A stretch of DNA of 64,000 nucleotides from the NCBI GenBank assembly GCA_947626225.1, contig CANQRH010000007.1:1-64000 (forward strand). Reading direction: 5' to 3'. This document shows, in pieces, positions 14,343-24,087 of the stretch. The notes below the pieces were generated by a model. That model did no database searches, was not told the DNA's origin, and saw nothing but the letters and a program-made list of their open reading frames with translations. Position 1 is the stretch's first letter; every line of letters begins with the position of its first letter. The translations under genes were made by a program, and so were the position numbers. This stretch comes from Candidatus Gastranaerophilales bacterium. GTDB lineage: Bacteria; Cyanobacteriota; Vampirovibrionia; Gastranaerophilales; Gastranaerophilaceae.

Positions 14343-14896
14343 GACTCACTACCTCCAAAACTTTTGTTTGCTCTCTATCCTCATTTTAACGTATTGACTC
14401 AAAAGTTTAATCGTTCCAAGGATGGATAAATTCCTAGGGCAAAAGATGTATCCCCCAAGACGTATTTCCATAATATGACAAAACAAAAAAAAATAAATAA
14501 TTTGATATCGTGCCATGCCAATCTTTTTACAATTAATTTTTATCAAAACCTTAAAATCACTAATTTGATTGAATTTTGACTAAAAAAATTTTTTGAGAAA
14601 AAATTTACTTAATTTTTGTAAAATAAATGTTAAAAACTCTTGCAAAACCCGAAAGTATTCATGCCATGGCTTTTTTGGAATGAAAATGAATTGTAAATGT
14701 TGTTAATAGTTATAGATATTGAAAAACTATAATAGTTTATACCGAAATTTAAAATTAAAATTTTTCCGTGAAAAATACGGAAATTTTTTTTAGCAGCACC
14801 GATGTAAACTTTTGTAACAATATTTGTACATGACTGAAATTTTCGGATTATAAAACCGTTTACATGTTTAAGAGTATAAAAAAGAGAGAGTACTAC
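14343..14896. other. Intergenic region with a terminator-like hairpin
   Basis: About 550 AT-rich bases. The 65-codon minus-strand ORF (14349-14546) lacks a ribosome-binding site and I do not call it. At 14764-14783 the inverted repeat TTTCCGT / ACGGAAA followed by TTTTTTT looks like a rho-independent terminator on the plus strand, although no upstream plus-strand gene exists; it may end a small RNA starting around 14,600. Confidence 0.4.
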
Positions 14897-16555
14897 ATGG
14901 CACCAGGATTAACACAAGTTAAAGTTCCTACAAATAATACCTTCGGTACTGCGGCTCAAAAAATGAGTTCACAGCCCGGAAGGACAACCATGTATTCATC
15001 TTCCAGAGGGAATACTCAAGTCGGTATGCTATTCGGAAGAAATACTACTCAAAGAACTTTCGGACAATCTTTCGGTATAACTGCTCAACGTTCTACTACA
15101 GGTTTTGAAAAAGCTGATTATTCATTTGTCAGAGATTTGAATGCATCTACTCCGCCTTTGTTCAAACAAGACTTATACGGCGGTTTTGATATGGGTATTC
15201 ATAATTGTAATCACGACAACAAAATGAGTACTTTTGAAAAAGTCGCAATGGGTATGGCTTTACTTAACGCAATTTTGCCGACTGTTTCAGATGCCGTCAG
15301 CACAATAAAATCGACAAAAGGTACATCTTCTGCCGAGGATGCGGGATTTAATTTTGATTCGGCTAAGTTTGAAATGACAAAAGAACTTTCTCAAGCAACA
15401 ACATTCGGTAAGATTAATAATGTTGAAGCCAAAGCTAATGAAAAATTGAATAATTTCCAAGAGAATTACTCCAAATCGGGACAAGATACAATCACGGGTA
15501 TAAATGATCTAATCGGTAAAACTCCGGGATTGCAAGATGCAGATGTATCTCTCGATACATCAAAACTGGCTTTAAGCAATTTGAACATAAATCCTGATGA
15601 TTTATCATCACTTGATGAGGCGGCAAAAACTATAAATAAAGATCTTGCTAAAGTTGATGAATTTATTACAAAAGATATTAAAGATGGTATAGATAAATGT
15701 ACAACCAAGAGCGGAGAACTTTCTCAGCAAATCGGTACGTTAGAGTCTCGGAAACAGGCTGCGCAAGCTGCGGAAGCTACTGGCGGAGCCCCATCTCCTT
15801 CTTCTGATGAAATTCAAAAACAAATTAGTGAATTAAAAGAACAAAAAAATAAAATTGACACTGCAAGAAAAGAACTTGAAGGCAATATTACAAAAGCAGC
15901 TAATGATTTAAAAACTGAACTTCAAAAACAACAAACAACACTCGGAGATATTAAAGAGGTTAAATCGGAACTTGCCGATAAAAAATATGAAGTTGCAAAA
16001 GACAATGATAAAGAAATTTCTTCAAACAAAAAGAAAATGGATAAATTAAATGATGAAATTAAACAGCTTCAAACCGAAGCAAAGAATGATCCTAAAAAAG
16101 CAGATAAACTCAAAGGCAAAATGGATGAATTTAACGGATTGGTAAAAGAAATGTCCGCACTGAAAGATTCGTTAAAGGATATGAACGATGTAACGTCATT
16201 TACAAACAGTAAAGGAAAAACGCATACAATGACTAATACCTCCATAGATCCTAAATATTTTGAAGTTAAAACACCATCTGCCGGTTCCGGTAGAGATATT
16301 AAAGCAGGAGGTGCGGCAGATGAGACTGTCGGACAACAAAACTCCAGAGTTATGACCAACCTTAGTGATTGTAAACAAGCAGGTGATACAATTAAAATAG
16401 GTAAGGGTTCGTATGTCTTAAGTGCTGACGGAATGTTTATTTCCGATCACGGAGATAAATTTTCAAGAGATGAACTGCAGAGAATAGCATATAATGATAC
16501 TTCCAATCCTAATCAGCCAATACACGGATTTAACAACTTCGGATTGAATGCTTAA
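14897..16555 (+). CDS. Large coiled-coil protein, lineage-type, unknown function
   Basis: 552 residues from the ATG at 14897 (MAPGLTQVKVP), which has AAGAGAGAG upstream; the in-frame ATG at 14864 has no ribosome-binding site. Residues 1-85 are Ser/Thr/Gln-rich with repeated FG motifs (NTFGTA, LFGRNT, RTFGQSFG). A hydrophobic segment lies near residues 115-130. Residues 250-430 are heptad-rich Lys/Glu/Gln coiled coil with a low-complexity spacer (AAEATGGAPSPSS). The C-terminus is Gly/Asn-rich. No signal peptide, no known domain. It has its own terminator and may be a structural or exported protein. Confidence 0.75.
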   Translation: MAPGLTQVKVPTNNTFGTAAQKMSSQPGRTTMYSSSRGNTQVGMLFGRNTTQRTFGQSFGITAQRSTTGFEKADYSFVRDLNASTPPLFKQDLYGGFDMGIHNCNHDNKMSTFEKVAMGMALLNAILPTVSDAVSTIKSTKGTSSAEDAGFNFDSAKFEMTKELSQATTFGKINNVEAKANEKLNNFQENYSKSGQDTITGINDLIGKTPGLQDADVSLDTSKLALSNLNINPDDLSSLDEAAKTINKDLAKVDEFITKDIKDGIDKCTTKSGELSQQIGTLESRKQAAQAAEATGGAPSPSSDEIQKQISELKEQKNKIDTARKELEGNITKAANDLKTELQKQQTTLGDIKEVKSELADKKYEVAKDNDKEISSNKKKMDKLNDEIKQLQTEAKNDPKKADKLKGKMDEFNGLVKEMSALKDSLKDMNDVTSFTNSKGKTHTMTNTSIDPKYFEVKTPSAGSGRDIKAGGAADETVGQQNSRVMTNLSDCKQAGDTIKIGKGSYVLSADGMFISDHGDKFSRDELQRIAYNDTSNPNQPIHGFNNFGLNA

Positions 16556-16675: not shown

Positions 16676-17158
16676 ATGAAACAGGATATCAACAGGCATG
16701 AAGTGCTCGAGAAAATTACGCCGATTATTGAGAATACGGCTATGAGATTCGGCTATATACCTATTGAAATTGAGTTTATCAAAGAAAATCACAGATGGTT
16801 TTTGAGAATTTATCTTTATTCAAAAGAAAAAGATGTTACGCTTGATGATTGTGAAAACGTAACACGAAGCTTGTCTGATTTTCTTGATGAACTTATTCCC
16901 GTTAAATATTATCTTGAAGTTTCATCACCCGGTTTGGAAAGGAAATTCAAATCCGAAAAAGAATTTGTTATCTTCAACGGAAGAAGAATCAGCTTAAAGT
17001 TGAAAAATCCGCTTGAAGGAGAAACAGAAAAAATCTTTAAAGGCGAGATTTTGGATTTTGATGAAAAAGAAGGGTTGAAGTTTTTCCGCTTCGATGACGG
17101 ACAAGAACTTTTAATTCCGCGTGACAATATTCAGTCAGCAAAATTGTACATTGATTAA
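16676..17158 (+). CDS. rimP: Ribosome maturation factor RimP
   Basis: 160 residues. The N-terminal domain contains IEIEFIKENHRWFLRIYLY and the conserved YYLEVSSPGLERKF motif; the C-terminal SH3-like domain follows. RimP helps assemble the 30S head. AAAGGA precedes the start. It is normally followed immediately by nusA; here the pair is separated by 884 bases containing a repeat-flanked insert. Confidence 0.96.
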   Translation: MKQDINRHEVLEKITPIIENTAMRFGYIPIEIEFIKENHRWFLRIYLYSKEKDVTLDDCENVTRSLSDFLDELIPVKYYLEVSSPGLERKFKSEKEFVIFNGRRISLKLKNPLEGETEKIFKGEILDFDEKEGLKFFRFDDGQELLIPRDNIQSAKLYID

Positions 17159-17370
17159 GTAAGTTATTAAGTTATTAAGTTACTAGGTTATTAAGTTCTT
17201 TACGGTGCTTCGCACGGAAAATAGAAGTTAATAAGAGTTATTAGGTTACTAAGTTACTAGGTTATTAAGTTCTTTACGGTGCTTCGCACGGAAAATAGAA
17301 GTTAATAAGAGTTATTGGGTTACTAAGTTACTAAGTTACTAGGTTATTAAGTTCGTTTCGGTGCTTGTAA
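17159..17370 (+). repeat. Left array, ~74-bp repeats
   Basis: Nearly three units starting at about 17162, 17236 and 17310. Each is a run of GTTATTAAGTTACTAGG-like 8-mers followed by TTCTTTACGGTGCTTCGCAC and GAAAATAGAAGTTAATAAG. Units 1 and 2 are almost identical; the third diverges after GTTCG. Confidence 0.9.
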
Positions 17371-17404
17371 GTTTACTTGAGTGATATAAAAGAAAGGTAA
17401 TAAA

Positions 17405-17758
17405 ATGCAGTACAAAGATATGGAAGTTTGGAAGCAGTCAATGGAGCTTTGTTTTAAAATTTATAGTATGACTGATAATTTTCCTAAAAATGAAATATTT
17501 GGATTAACATCACAGATGCGTCGTTGTGCTATTTCAATACCTTCAAATATTGCGGAAGGAAGTAACAGATATTCCGATAAAGAAACTTTAAGGTTTATTT
17601 ATATTGCACAAGGTTCTCTTGCGGAACTGGAAACTCAGATTTTAATATCGCAACGTCTGGGGTATATAAATGATTTAAATGAAATAAATGAACAAGTTAG
17701 TAAAATCAGTGCATTATTAACAGGTTTAAGAAAATATTTTGAAAAAAAGGATATTTAA
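17405..17758 (+). CDS. Four-helix-bundle (23S rRNA IVP / Avd-like) protein
   Basis: 117 residues, AAAGG upstream of ATG. The sequence MQYKDMEVWKQSMELCFKIY, then FGLTSQMRRCAISIPSNIAE and GSLAELETQ, is the classic signature of the S23/four-helix-bundle family. Members form pentameric bundles with a basic face and bind nucleic acid. They are encoded in 23S rRNA intervening sequences, in standalone repeat-flanked loci like this one, and as Avd accessory proteins of diversity-generating retroelements. No reverse transcriptase is present here. Molecular role in the standalone form is unknown. Confidence 0.92.
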   Translation: MQYKDMEVWKQSMELCFKIYSMTDNFPKNEIFGLTSQMRRCAISIPSNIAEGSNRYSDKETLRFIYIAQGSLAELETQILISQRLGYINDLNEINEQVSKISALLTGLRKYFEKKDI

Positions 17759-17783
17759 TGTGATATAAATAGATTTAATAAAA

Positions 17784-18010
17784 CTAACAAAAAAAAATAT
17801 CGTTTGCGAAGCAAAACCTAAACGAACTTAATAACTTAGTAACTTAATAACCTAATAACTAACAAAAAAAATATCGTTTGCGAAGCGAAACCTAAACGAA
17901 CTTAATAACTCAGTAACTTAATAACTTAGTAACTAACTAAAAAAAATATCGTTTGCGAAGCAAACCAAAACGAACTTAATAACTTAATAACTTAGTAACC
18001 TAATAACTTA
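17784..18010 (-). repeat. Right array, ~74-bp repeats in inverted orientation
   Basis: Three units with the hairpin core beginning at 17801, 17875 and 17950, spacing 74 and 75. Each is AAAAATATCGTTTGCGAAGC followed by AAACCTAAACGAACTTAATA and runs of ACTTAGTAACTTAATAACC, the reverse complement of the 8-mer runs in the left array. Confidence 0.9.
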
Positions 18011-18042
18011 TAAATATTACAAAAAAATGAAAGGATAAAAAA

Positions 18043-19272
18043 ATGATTAAAATCGGAACAGCACTTTTTGAAGCTTGCGAAGAACTGGAAAGAGAAAGAG
18101 GTATCTCTAAAGAAGTTCTTATCGCCTCACTTTGTGATGCAATGGTTGCCGCATACAAAAGACATATGAGAATTAAAGAAGCTACCAATATTGAAGCTAT
18201 ATTGGATGAACAATCCGGTGAAATCGGTGTTTTCAGAACAAAACTCGTTGTTGACAATGTTGAAGATGAGGATACTCAAATTACCCTCAAAGATGCTCAG
18301 GAAATCGTCGAAGATGTTGAAACGGGCGACGAAATTAAAATTGAAGTTACTCCCGAGCAGTTCGGACGTATTGCTGCGCAATCAGCCAAACAAGTTATAA
18401 CTCAGCGTATCAGAGAAGCTGAAAGAAATCTTGTTCTTAACGAATTTTTAGACAAAAAAGGCACTCTTACTACAGGTATTATCCAACGTGTTGAAAATCG
18501 CAACGTAATTGTTAATATCGGAAAAACAGATGCGATAATGCCTCAGAAAGAACAAATTCCCGGAGAATATTACAAACCCGGAAACAGAATCAGAGTCTTT
18601 GTTCTTAACGTAAAAGAAACAAACAGATTGCCTCAGGTTATAGTTTCTCATGCTCACGCGGAAATCGTCCGGGAACTTTTTGAACTTGAAGTTCCGGAAA
18701 TTGAAGACGGTATCGTTGAAATAAAATCTATTTCAAGAGAAGCCGGCTACAGAACAAAAATTGCCGTATGGTCTAACGATCCGGAAGTTGATTCCGTAGG
18801 TGCATGTATAGGCCCGCGCGGAAGCAGAATTCAAACAATAGTTTCCGAATTGAAAAACGAGAAAATTGATATTGTAAGATATTCCGAAGATCCCGTTGAA
18901 TATATCGTAAATGCTCTTTCTCCGGCAAGAGTTGTGTCAGTTGATATTCTCGCAAACGATGATTATGCTCAGGAAGCAATGGTTGTCGTTCCCGATGATC
19001 AGTTGAGCCTTGCAATCGGCAGAGAAGGTCAAAATGTCAGACTCGCTCATAAACTTACCGGATGGAAGATAGATATAAAGAGTGTTTCACAGATGGAAAA
19101 AGCCGAAAGCGAAAATATGGTTTCTTATGAGAATAATGAAGAAGATTATTCCGACGAAGAGGAAGTCGATGAACTTCAACAGGAAATCGAAGAAGAAATG
19201 AATCAACAAGTCGTTGATGAAGAAGATTTTCAACAGGAAGAAGAAACCGTTGAAGAAACGGAAGAAGAATAA
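18043..19272 (+). CDS. nusA: Transcription termination/antitermination factor NusA
   Basis: 409 residues. The N-terminal RNA-polymerase-binding domain (residues 1-120) starts MIKIGTALFEACEELERERG. An S1 domain follows (TTGIIQRVENRNVIVNIG), then KH1 with GACIGPRGSRIQTI and KH2 with LAIGREGQNVRLA. The C-terminus is a very acidic tail of about 55 residues in place of the acidic repeats of E. coli. AAAGGA lies ahead of the ATG. infB, the usual next gene, is absent; zupT follows. Confidence 0.97.
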   Translation: MIKIGTALFEACEELERERGISKEVLIASLCDAMVAAYKRHMRIKEATNIEAILDEQSGEIGVFRTKLVVDNVEDEDTQITLKDAQEIVEDVETGDEIKIEVTPEQFGRIAAQSAKQVITQRIREAERNLVLNEFLDKKGTLTTGIIQRVENRNVIVNIGKTDAIMPQKEQIPGEYYKPGNRIRVFVLNVKETNRLPQVIVSHAHAEIVRELFELEVPEIEDGIVEIKSISREAGYRTKIAVWSNDPEVDSVGACIGPRGSRIQTIVSELKNEKIDIVRYSEDPVEYIVNALSPARVVSVDILANDDYAQEAMVVVPDDQLSLAIGREGQNVRLAHKLTGWKIDIKSVSQMEKAESENMVSYENNEEDYSDEEEVDELQQEIEEEMNQQVVDEEDFQQEEETVEETEEE

Positions 19273-20733: not shown

Positions 20734-21021
20734 ATGGCACTATCTCCGAAGGAATTTCAAGTATTGACTTTGGCTGCATTGGGCTTTTCGGACAAAGAAA
20801 TCGGAAATTTATTAAAAATAGCTTACGGTACTGTCAGAAATCATATAGACAGAACCGTCCTTAAATTAAATGCCCGAAATAAAACCCATGCAGTAATGAT
20901 ATACAAAATGCAAAATAAAAACTGGCTGGAGGATTTCTATGAAACGCATAATTCTACATTGGACTGCAGGTTCTTATTATCCGACGGATTACGAAAAAGA
21001 ACATTACCATTTTTTAGTTGA
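20734..21021 (+). CDS. LuxR/GerE-type helix-turn-helix protein
   Basis: 95 residues, AAGGAA upstream. Residues 1-60 match the GerE HTH: LSPKEFQVLTLAALGFSDKE, then GNLLKIAYGTVRNHIDRTVL. There is no receiver or sensor domain, so it is a standalone DNA-binding module, possibly controlling the phage-like operon. Its last 28 codons overlap the start of the amidase gene in another frame (83 bases), more than usual; the tail has little homology and may reflect a lost stop. Confidence 0.8.
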   Translation: MALSPKEFQVLTLAALGFSDKEIGNLLKIAYGTVRNHIDRTVLKLNARNKTHAVMIYKMQNKNWLEDFYETHNSTLDCRFLLSDGLRKRTLPFFS

Positions 21022-21430
21022 TAAAGACGGCATTGTTCACAACGGAAAGTTTAAACCGGAAGATAATGAATGCTGCAGAATAGGAAAATATGCCGCACAT
21101 ACAGGCGGCGGAAATACCGGAAGTATAGGTGTTGCAATATGTGCTATGGCCGGTTACAAAAGTAAAAATAATACGGGAAATTATCCTATCTTAAAGAAGC
21201 AATTTGAAAGAACAATGGAACTTTGTGCGGAATTGGCAGTGAAATACAAAATTGATATTACCGCACAAACTGTTTTAACTCACTATGAATTCGGAATAAG
21301 AAATCCTAAAACAACGAGTGCGGGAAAAATTGATATTACGTATCTGCCTCCTTATCCTTGGGTGGAAAAAGATGAGGCGGGCAGTTTTATACGCTCAAAA
21401 ATAAAATGGTACAAATTAAAAGGAGTTTAA
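20939..21430 (+). CDS. N-acetylmuramoyl-L-alanine amidase (phage endolysin)
   Basis: 163 residues, GGAGG upstream. The Amidase_2/PGRP fold is shown by the zinc-site segments IILHWTAG and YAAHTGGGNTGSIGV, with later LTHYEFG and TTSAGKIDI. It cleaves the amide bond between MurNAc and the stem peptide. Without a signal peptide it needs a holin or similar route. The minus-strand gene at 51158 in prophage 2 is a clear relative, showing the common origin of the two blocks. Confidence 0.93.
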   Translation: MKRIILHWTAGSYYPTDYEKEHYHFLVDKDGIVHNGKFKPEDNECCRIGKYAAHTGGGNTGSIGVAICAMAGYKSKNNTGNYPILKKQFERTMELCAELAVKYKIDITAQTVLTHYEFGIRNPKTTSAGKIDITYLPPYPWVEKDEAGSFIRSKIKWYKLKGV

Positions 21431-21431
21431 G

Positions 21432-22934
21432 ATGGAAACGGCATATTACAATCTTTCAGGCGGTATTAATCAAGCTTTAACCAAAACAGAGCTGGGTATT
21501 GATACCAAAAAAATATACTGGACGGATTCAGAGAATATTGAAATTTTTGAAAACCGCGGGATTTGTAAACAAAACGGTAATACTTTAAAATTAGAAATCG
21601 GAGAAGAAATTACCGGAATATCGGAACTTTCCGCATACGATGAAACCAAACTCGTTATAACTTCAATATCAGGTAAAATTTATATTTATGACGGTATAAG
21701 TACGGTACTTGTTGACAAAACTCTGGAAGGAGTTGAGCCGGTATTTCAATCTTTTCTGAACGGTATACTTGTTATGACGGAAAAGGACGGCCTTTTCTAT
21801 ATCAAAAATAATTCAACATATGACGTTGTCGAATGCGAATTGAATGACCTTGAGAAAAACAAACTTAAAGGTGCTGTTATAACGGTTTACAAAGGACGGG
21901 TATGGGCAGCTAAAGATGCAACGATATATTATTCGGCACTCGGAAGTTACAGCGATTTTACAACGGAGAATGATGCCGGATACATAAATGAATTTCATAC
22001 CGATACGGGTTCAATTACGGCTTTAAAACCTTATAAAGATTATCTTGCAATATACAAAAATAACAGTGTTTATCTCTTAACCGGAACAAGTAAAGACGAT
22101 TTTGCCATAATGCCCTTTGCAAATAAAGGTGCGGTATCGCAAAACGCTATCGTAAATGTTGAAAATAAACAATATTTTTTGAGCAACGGGATATTTGCGC
22201 TTGAACAGGTCGGAGAACTTAACCAAATTCAGCTCGGAAGTGAAATATCTTTAAAAATTAAGCCGGAATTTTCATATTTTATAAATTTAGATAAAACAAT
22301 ATGCCTGCATTATGAAAACAGAAATCAGATATGGTATTTCTTCCCTTATTCCGGAGAAAAATATTTTCATACGGTTTGGATAAATGATTATGTCAATAAA
22401 GCTTGGTATAAGCGTGTAATTCCGCAGGATATCACAACTGCTTGTGTATACGGAGGAAAAATCCATACCGCCGATAAAGACGGAAATATATATATAGAAG
22501 ATTACGGAACGACATTTAACGGGACGCCCGTAAAGTTTATGTGGAAATCTCCGTTTTTGGCGATAACAACCCCGCATCACAGAAAAATAATTGATGAATT
22601 TTATTTTCTTCTGGACACGGAATATGATAATAATTTTAACTTCTCGGTTTATAAAGATTATGACAGCGAGTTTTCCGATGATGCGGAGACAATATATTCC
22701 GTGCATCAGGATCATTTAATCTGGGCTGATGAAAATACATCGGATTCTTTGCCCTGTCATTGGACGCCGGATGATTCTATAGTCCCTGTATGGTCAATAA
22801 ATAAAGATACGCTGGAGAAAGCCGAAATATCGGAATCAAATTATTCCGTACAGTTGTGCGTTCAGGGAGATGACTATATTCATTCCTGTGCGATTATCGG
22901 TCTTCAATTCAGAGAAGTTTATAACGATGATTAA
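21432..22934 (+). CDS. Phage tail/stabilisation-type protein (P22 gp10-like role)
   Basis: 500 residues starting one base after the amidase stop with AGGAG. The sequence is beta-rich with repeated short strands of the propeller type (GKIYIYDG, GILVMTEKDG, DGNIYIEDYG). It begins METAYYNLSGGINQALTKTE, an N-terminus typical of phage stabilisation proteins. The 516-residue gene at 59138 in prophage 2 is similar in length, layout and features. In P22 this class plugs the portal and adaptor after DNA packaging. Confidence 0.7.
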   Translation: METAYYNLSGGINQALTKTELGIDTKKIYWTDSENIEIFENRGICKQNGNTLKLEIGEEITGISELSAYDETKLVITSISGKIYIYDGISTVLVDKTLEGVEPVFQSFLNGILVMTEKDGLFYIKNNSTYDVVECELNDLEKNKLKGAVITVYKGRVWAAKDATIYYSALGSYSDFTTENDAGYINEFHTDTGSITALKPYKDYLAIYKNNSVYLLTGTSKDDFAIMPFANKGAVSQNAIVNVENKQYFLSNGIFALEQVGELNQIQLGSEISLKIKPEFSYFINLDKTICLHYENRNQIWYFFPYSGEKYFHTVWINDYVNKAWYKRVIPQDITTACVYGGKIHTADKDGNIYIEDYGTTFNGTPVKFMWKSPFLAITTPHHRKIIDEFYFLLDTEYDNNFNFSVYKDYDSEFSDDAETIYSVHQDHLIWADENTSDSLPCHWTPDDSIVPVWSINKDTLEKAEISESNYSVQLCVQGDDYIHSCAIIGLQFREVYNDD

Positions 22935-22983
22935 CACCACTCATACAAGTTAGTAGAAAGCAAAACAGAAAGGAAACAGAAAA

Positions 22984-23838
22984 ATGACAGGAAATTCTTA
23001 CTCGGCATTTATTCCCGAAATCTGGAGCCAGAAGCTTAACAACATGCTTGAAAAAGAATGTGTAATGCTTCAATGTGTAAACAGAAATTGGGAAGGTGAA
23101 ATTAAAAATCAGGGTGATAAGGTAAAAATTATTACTCCTGCTGCCGTTACCGTTTCAACGCTCGGAACTTCCAATATCTCTTACAGCGAGCTTGAACCGA
23201 CATCTGCTGAACTGGTAATTGATCAGAAAAAATTCTTTGCATTCAAAATTAATGATGTGGCATCAGTTCAGGCTAATACCGATATTATGGAAGCACATCT
23301 TAAAAATGCAAGAAAAGCCATTGAAGAAGTTCAGGATGCTTATTTGTTATCACAGCATGCAAACGTTGATTCAAATAACGTTGTAGGCTCTGATGAGGCT
23401 CCGGTTGCACTTGACAAGACCACCATTTACTCTCAATTTGTAAAACTCGCATTATGTCTGAAAAATTCTGATGCCGTAACGGCAGGCACCCGTCCATGGG
23501 TTGTAATTAACCCGACAATCGAATCTTATCTGCTTCAAAGTTCCGAATTTATCGGAGCTCACAATGTAGCTGATGAAACATTAAGGGAAGGTGCTATCGG
23601 AAGGATTGCAGGCATGGATGTTCTCGTAAGCACAAATTTAACTGAAGTAAGCGAAAAATATTATGTGCTTGCGGGAACAAATGAAGCAATTACATTTGCA
23701 TCACAGCTTGCCAAAATTGAAAGCCTGAGAGATAAAGACAGTTTCTCCGATTTGGTCAGAGGTCTTTATTTGTACGGTGCAAAAACGGTACAGCCGAAAG
23801 CACTCGCTAAAATGGTTGTATCAGTTCCGAAAGCATAG
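22984..23838 (+). CDS. Major capsid protein (P22 coat-like)
   Basis: 284 residues. The region NRNWEGEIKNQGDKVKI, followed by VIDQKKFFAFKINDVASVQA, and the C-terminal LYLYGAKTVQPKALA are shared almost word for word with the 57221 gene in prophage 2. This is the P22-type coat protein signature. AAAGGAAACAG precedes the ATG. It forms the icosahedral shell together with the scaffold encoded just downstream. Confidence 0.9.
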   Translation: MTGNSYSAFIPEIWSQKLNNMLEKECVMLQCVNRNWEGEIKNQGDKVKIITPAAVTVSTLGTSNISYSELEPTSAELVIDQKKFFAFKINDVASVQANTDIMEAHLKNARKAIEEVQDAYLLSQHANVDSNNVVGSDEAPVALDKTTIYSQFVKLALCLKNSDAVTAGTRPWVVINPTIESYLLQSSEFIGAHNVADETLREGAIGRIAGMDVLVSTNLTEVSEKYYVLAGTNEAITFASQLAKIESLRDKDSFSDLVRGLYLYGAKTVQPKALAKMVVSVPKA

Positions 23839-23847
23839 GTGAGAATT

Positions 23848-24087
23848 ATGTTTAAAAACTTGAAAACAGTAATTAAAGAGCTGGCTAAAACTGCCGTCAT
23901 AAAAGCCGAAGAAGCACTCGGAAGCTCTGAAGGACGACAGAAAAAGGAAATGGCAGTTAAATATATTATTAACGATATTCCTGTGCCGGCTGTGTTAAAA
24001 CCGTTCGTAAGGATTTTGCTGTCTTCTTTTATAGATGATGCAATTGAATTTGCGAATATATGGAGGTGCTATGAACAACATGAATAA
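23848..24087 (+). CDS. Small holin-like / LLH-type phage protein
   Basis: 79 residues from ATG 23848 with AGGTGAG upstream (the GTG at 23839 is too close to the previous stop). AVIKAEEALGSSEGRQKKEM resembles the region found in LLH-type holins and holin-associated proteins of Gram-positive phages. The C-terminus is amphipathic rather than a clear membrane helix. It may assist lysis together with the amidase; role inferred. Confidence 0.5.
   Translation: MFKNLKTVIKELAKTAVIKAEEALGSSEGRQKKEMAVKYIINDIPVPAVLKPFVRILLSSFIDDAIEFANIWRCYEQHE

Follow-up and report, generated by a model that had tools for sequence, protein, structure and literature searches.

The spacer between rimP and nusA in a Candidatus Gastranaerophilales genome (G000) holds a small gene framed by inverted repeat arrays, which raises the question of what kind of element this is and how such elements come to lie inside protein operons. 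The locus lies in a 64,000-nt stretch of contig CANQRH010000007.1, which we refer to as the window. An earlier note on this DNA had proposed an IVS-like element of a mobile family that spreads outside rRNA. The elements described here resemble the 23S rRNA IVS of Coxiella and Leptospira in having an open reading frame (ORF) of the S23p/IVP family, stem-forming inverted repeats around the gene, and a suspected selfish nature; how the 23S rRNA IVS move is a matter of hypotheses (PMC4990558).

Layout of the element between rimP and nusA

The element starts 0 to 1 nt past the rimP stop codon and ends 32 nt ahead of the nusA start (Table 1); the description of an IVS-like element with a four-helix-bundle gene that separates rimP from nusA was accurate. 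TRF reported a 74-nt period in both the left and the right array (scores of 326 and 380, respectively), and the arms are inverted relative to each other, with 82 to 89% complementarity over stretches of 44 to 57 nt, in line with the same period and opposite orientation that had been noted. The first two units of the left arm are 97% identical, and the third, broken unit reaches approximately position 17362. Each unit comprises four to five 8-nt words (RGTTANTA), followed by a GTTC.TTWCGG motif and the small hairpin that had been pointed out, GTGCTTCGCAC in the left arm and TTTGCGAAGCAAA in the right arm. The claimed symmetry holds in part: the gene does lie between inverted arrays, but the left array has only about 2.5 regular units and the element sits nearer rimP than nusA.

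Table 1. Features of the rimP-nusA region, in window coordinates
Feature	Position	Strand	Details
rimP, upstream host gene	16676..17158	+	PF02576 and PF17384
Left arm, array of 74-nt units	17159..17362	+	Units at 17162 and 17236; broken third unit from 17310
Shine-Dalgarno-like AGAAAGG of the IVP gene	17391-17397	+	
IVP gene, 117 aa, four-helix bundle	17405..17758	+	PF05635 (E 4e-38); TIGR02436 (3e-37)
Right arm, three inverted 74-nt units	17782..18010	-	Units at 17790, 17864, and 17938
nusA Shine-Dalgarno-like GAAAGGA	18029-18035	+	Outside the right arm
nusA, downstream host gene	18043..19272	+	TIGR01953 (3e-126)

The earlier note had called for a genome-wide search for the repeat unit, and this search found the 74-nt unit, without the IVP gene, at about 14 further places; the IVP gene itself is present in a single copy in the 1.59-Mb genome. 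Some array copies in G000 lie at contig ends (C4:68-225, C5:136-479, and C2:298644-298818), so the arrays probably break the assembly and are more numerous than counted. Five gene-less arrays (L003, L004, L007, L008, and L088) immediately follow genes whose last domain is Peptidase_S74 (endosialidase chaperone), and the arrays of this genome may have spread together with that gene family.

Farther out in the window, a 563-aa, mostly coiled-coil protein with no Pfam family above cut-off is encoded upstream of rimP (14864-16555). Just downstream of the nusA region (20939-24087) are phage-like endolysin/amidase, virion structural protein, major head protein, and holin-like genes, which represent a prophage or a remnant of one.

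The IVP protein

The structure of the IVP protein was modeled with confidence as a four-helix bundle (pLDDT 96). Its best match in the PDB was 2gsc, the pentameric Xcc0516 (TM 0.92), followed by the S23-family structure 2rld and then, weakly, by Avd. A match to PF22296 (E 1e-6) fell below the family cut-off, and the Avd equivalog score was 23 against a cut-off of 80. Avd of diversity-generating retroelements (4dwl and 8ub7) is a fold relative of IVP; unlike Avd, IVP appears to lack a reverse transcriptase partner, as no PF00078 match was found in G000, beside the IVP gene or elsewhere, nor in the other five occupied genomes searched (G019, G022, G023, G007, and G024).

The dN/dS of the IVP family is 0.02 to 0.14, placing the protein under strong purifying selection, and the polar residues E30, Q37, N48, E51, R55, S71, E74, and Q78 are invariant across phyla; the IVP protein therefore does something. 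It contains no known catalytic motif, and the gene-bearing element contains no known transposase domain, only PF05635 and the PF22296 match below cut-off. Carriage by phages was considered and rejected, as no IVP match was found among 50,697 phage records. Relatives of the protein are encoded at the Candidatus Gastranaerophilales loci L090, L102, and L114.

Empty and filled rimP-nusA spacers in the genus

If the element is mobile, as the earlier note argued, some relatives should lack it, and 17 of the 23 genomes of the genus have an empty rimP-nusA spacer of 14 to 34 bp that holds little besides the nusA ribosome-binding site, with the same GAAAGGA retained. In five genomes, an IVP gene framed by inverted arms occupies the spacer, and in G017 the arms are present but the gene is missing; searches with IVP added two more filled sites, G024 and the MAG locus L102, and the rimP and nusA neighbors of both were read. 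With the repeat unit found elsewhere and empty sites found in relatives, neither half of the refutation set out in the earlier note came true. On a rimP+nusA tree, the occupied sites required 7 changes, compared with a shuffled mean of 6.2, and thus do not cluster; occupied genomes group with empty ones (for example, G000 with G002, and G007 with G020).

Silent sites date some of these insertions relative to their hosts. Between G019 and G022, the dS of IVP is 0.35, versus approximately 1.0 for the flanking genes (Fisher p 5e-5), and between G007 and G024 it is 0.34, versus 0.78 to 3.1 (Fisher p 8e-6). By this measure, the host genes of both pairs are clearly older than the element. The seven rimP-nusA IVPs form one clade (support 84/75) in a tree of this short protein, for which clade support is moderate and in which row L032, whose locus also holds the L018 gene, was mislabeled and is not used. 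The copy in G000 is different in that its silent sites have diverged as much as those of the host genes, and this insertion may therefore be old, with many losses. Low protein identity had hinted at an independent insertion of this copy, which the host-like divergence does not bear out. No close empty/filled pair resolved the junction for a target site duplication.

Full, deleted, and gene-less elements in two further operon spacers

The groES-groEL spacer is empty (11 to 23 bp) in 13 genomes, carries a full element in L090, and holds gene-less palindromes in ten genomes. These palindromes are written in about six word dialects, most of which match IVP elements elsewhere in the genus: GTGAAGC is also the word of the tyrS-site IVP, while AGATGCAT and AGAAGGCA are found at rfb-site IVPs. 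A different palindrome, GTCATCCTGAATTTATTTCAGGAT...ATGCTGAAACAAGTTCAGCATGAC, occupies this spacer in G003, G014, G015, and G017 and looks like another repeat family on the same landing site.

At the tyrS-cysE spacer, whose genes we named by eye from sequence, full elements are present in G003, G013, and G019, and a 175-bp internally deleted copy in G014 retains the 5' end of the IVP gene. Four genomes hold gene-less elements of two other dialects, four have 27- to 28-bp remnants, and six have gaps of 1 to 3 bp. Collectively, these sequences show that different elements, in several dialects and in full, internally deleted, or gene-less form, reached both spacers independently and that gene-less forms arise through internal deletion.

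The architecture across phyla

Clear inverted arms flank 62% of 79 IVP genes from other genomes but only 2.5% of 203 control genes at the same loci (p 4e-28), an enrichment of about 25-fold; the IVP genes span Bacteroidota, Pseudomonadota, Cloacimonadota, Desulfobacterota, CPR, Clostridia, and other groups. The 80 outside loci were chosen by closeness in sequence and are not all independent of one another. The period of the arms is 7 or 8, with the left and right arms agreeing in 27 of 31 cases, and the G-rich strand points toward the gene in approximately 90%. The words themselves are degenerate and vary widely between elements (GTGAATA, GGGACAA, GAGTTGAC, TCAGGGG, and GGCGATAA) but agree within one element.

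The elements of this family are approximately 0.45 to 0.5 kb in size (median, 468 bp), compared with 428 to 444 nt for the 23S rRNA IVS, and occupy spacers of conserved operons. These include sdhA-sdhB, the metH halves, O-antigen ABC transporter pairs, guaB-guaA, accB-accC, pdhB-pdhC, dxr-rseP, and groES-groEL, with gene names read by eye from neighbor sequences. The left arm starts at a median of -1 nt relative to the upstream stop codon, and about 9 nt separate the end of the right arm from the next start. Left arms contain stops in all three frames in 55% of cases (18% when shuffled), and many right arms are open. This stop pattern follows from a period that is not a multiple of three, which may be why 7 and 8 dominate.

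At least 84 of 99 IVP loci are co-directional with both neighbors, compared with 66% of the genes of the window; this is a lower bound for the sample, since the three loci scored "- -" by the crude ORF method used for neighbors include miscalls (L123 and L139). This marked sense bias could reflect an RNA step or, equally, selection for the gene to be expressed from the host operon. At least two copies, on Nostoc and Calothrix plasmids, are antisense to the operon. A near-identical pair of Calothrix plasmid copies (L233 and L234) that we considered as recent jumps shares a 3.6-kb block at 97.5% and so shows nothing in this regard.

A solo arm was seen in another setting: in G007, G016, and G022, about 15 type IV prepilin-like genes (L067, L070, L072, L073, L076-L084, L086, and L087) are preceded by the same arm, which forms one open frame (...PKRTYSPIHLFTYSP..) directly before KKxAFTLAEVLITLGIIGVVAA. 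It seems that the arm became, or landed in, the prepilin leader.

Three operon spacers each vary among empty, filled, and derivative states, the derivatives being gene-less or internally deleted, and the architecture recurs in many phyla; the idea of a mobile family outside rRNA has thus held up. Mobility is well supported by these sequence comparisons, on the basis of repeated independent occupation of spacers, deletion derivatives, transfer younger than host divergence, and an architecture that crosses phyla.

Word arrays, dialects, and heptamer repeats

Dispersed arrays match the dialect of the resident IVP element in G000 (RGTTANTA), and GTGAARM arrays peak in two of the three genomes that carry the corresponding IVP. 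Many gene-less arrays also occur in G014, G016, G020, and G032, in which no IVP gene was detected among MAG assemblies that are possibly incomplete. Below 50% identity, arm dialect tracks protein similarity only weakly (rho 0.07, 34/500 permutations).

The arms match heptamer repeats described in Xanthomonas, in which each genome has 70 to 75 convergent pairs of GGGAATC, located some 28 nt behind ORFs and generally not associated with mobile elements; similar repeats occur in Nostoc (PMC4692102). The Luteimonas locus L152 has an IVP gene in accB-accC between GGGAATC arms, and cyanobacterial plasmids carry IVP genes with GGGAGTA or GGGTGTA arms. A 2018 survey ranked heptamers first in abundance among tandem repeats in the intergenic DNA of prokaryotes and gave no clear clue to what they do (PMC6344855). 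Both the arms and these heptamers are short, G-rich tandem words, often arranged as convergent inverted pairs just behind an ORF. Unlike the arms studied here, however, the repeats of Xanthomonas, Nostoc, and prokaryotes at large were described as simple repeats with no known role (PMC4692102 and PMC6344855), and we found no connection between IVP genes and heptamer arrays in these papers or in the rest of the open-access literature searched.

How the elements may move

REP/RAYT systems and MITEs consist of one gene flanked by inverted repeats together with many gene-less copies. The elements described here likewise combine a gene, inverted repeats, and gene-less copies, and, as in MITE pairs, orthologous sites are empty or filled and gene-less derivatives keep the same ends (the G014 deletion and the groES-groEL palindromes). 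Unlike those systems, they have no HUH or DDE transposase, and only period, polarity, and symmetry are conserved between arms. As in an IVS, the terminal inverted repeats are predicted to pair into a stem whose loop contains the ORF. Unlike the IVS, the elements sit in protein-operon spacers such as rimP-nusA and not in a 23S rRNA helix, their arms are arrays of 7- to 8-nt words in element-specific dialects, and gene-less derivatives occur.

We propose that these are members of a mobile family with inverted word-array ends and an IVP gene, and that IVP probably moves the arms as DNA. The IVP protein would recognize the arms and promote their movement as DNA, leaving the strand chemistry to host enzymes. 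Copies would lodge in the short gap that separates the stop codon of an operon gene from the next ribosome-binding site. The probable reason is that such places tolerate insertions, as left arms usually carry stops in several frames and right arms are usually open. Internal deletion or partial copying would account for the gene-less palindromes and the solo arrays, and in G000 the arms would have been further amplified to 74-bp tandem units and scattered. Acting on DNA is the economical reading of the same-dialect dispersed arrays, the antisense plasmid copies, the missing PF00078 matches, and the arm mismatches described below. The compared loci showed neither transposition in progress nor an excised form nor a target duplication, and because G014, G016, G020, and G032 hold arrays with no detected IVP gene, mobilization in trans by a resident IVP is limited to inference.

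Alternatively, the elements could move as RNA: the transcript folds, the IVP mRNA is cut out by RNase III, and it returns by reverse transcription or RNA-templated repair, with IVP serving as an Avd-like RNA chaperone. The long RNA arm foreseen in the earlier note is indeed predicted, as the region from 17150 to 18042 folds at -242.5 kcal/mol, compared with -155.7 kcal/mol when shuffled (z -12.5), with three units pairing with three. However, mismatches between arms show no G-U preference (85 keep a wobble and 95 break it), so this test gave no sign that selection keeps the arms paired as RNA. RNase III excises the Coxiella IVS (PMC4990558), and the IVP fold resembles Avd and the reverse transcriptase complex of diversity-generating retroelements, but the six occupied genomes searched gave no PF00078 match and the antisense plasmid copies do not fit. 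Movement through RNA is therefore unlikely in our view, but it is a live rival because the sense bias (84 of 99 loci) fits an RNA step as well as it fits selection on expression.

It is somewhat less likely still that the word arrays spread or expand alone, by slippage, template switching, or another enzyme, with the IVP gene as a passenger or array cleaner. Several genomes do have arrays without a detected IVP gene, the arms of G000 have been amplified as tandem 74-nt units, and, to our knowledge, four-helix bundles are not known as enzymes; against this, IVP genes are flanked by arms, in the form of matched inverted pairs, about 25 times more often than control genes are, and purifying selection acts on the protein. 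A vertically inherited module useful to the host, such as an mRNA processing site, that was lost many times is very improbable: it would fit the monophyly of the rimP-nusA IVPs, the core-operon location, and the purifying selection, but not the unrelated dialects in the same spacers, the decay of gene-less copies, the element dS below that of the flanks, or the scatter of occupied sites over the host tree.

Implications

Beyond DNA-level movement itself, we tentatively suggest, as a possibility that falls somewhat short of an even chance, that IVP/S23 proteins are the trans-acting factor of an undescribed class of bacterial mobile DNA that reads the period and polarity of degenerate words and not a fixed end sequence, that its gene-less relics are a main source of the 7- to 8-nt intergenic repeats found throughout prokaryotes, and that the 23S rRNA IVS are a special case in which the insertion is in an rRNA operon. 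Two open problems, the heptamer repeats (PMC6344855) and the movement of 23S rRNA IVS (PMC4990558), would then become one, and if IVP proteins move word arrays, they would be the agent for both. The proposal would also account for IVP genes inside cas operons, which have been noted, for example, between cmr3 and cmr2 (PMC3936711). If it is true, small insertions into core operons, which do little apparent damage, would broadly shape how operon genes are spaced, where genes end, and how transcripts are processed.
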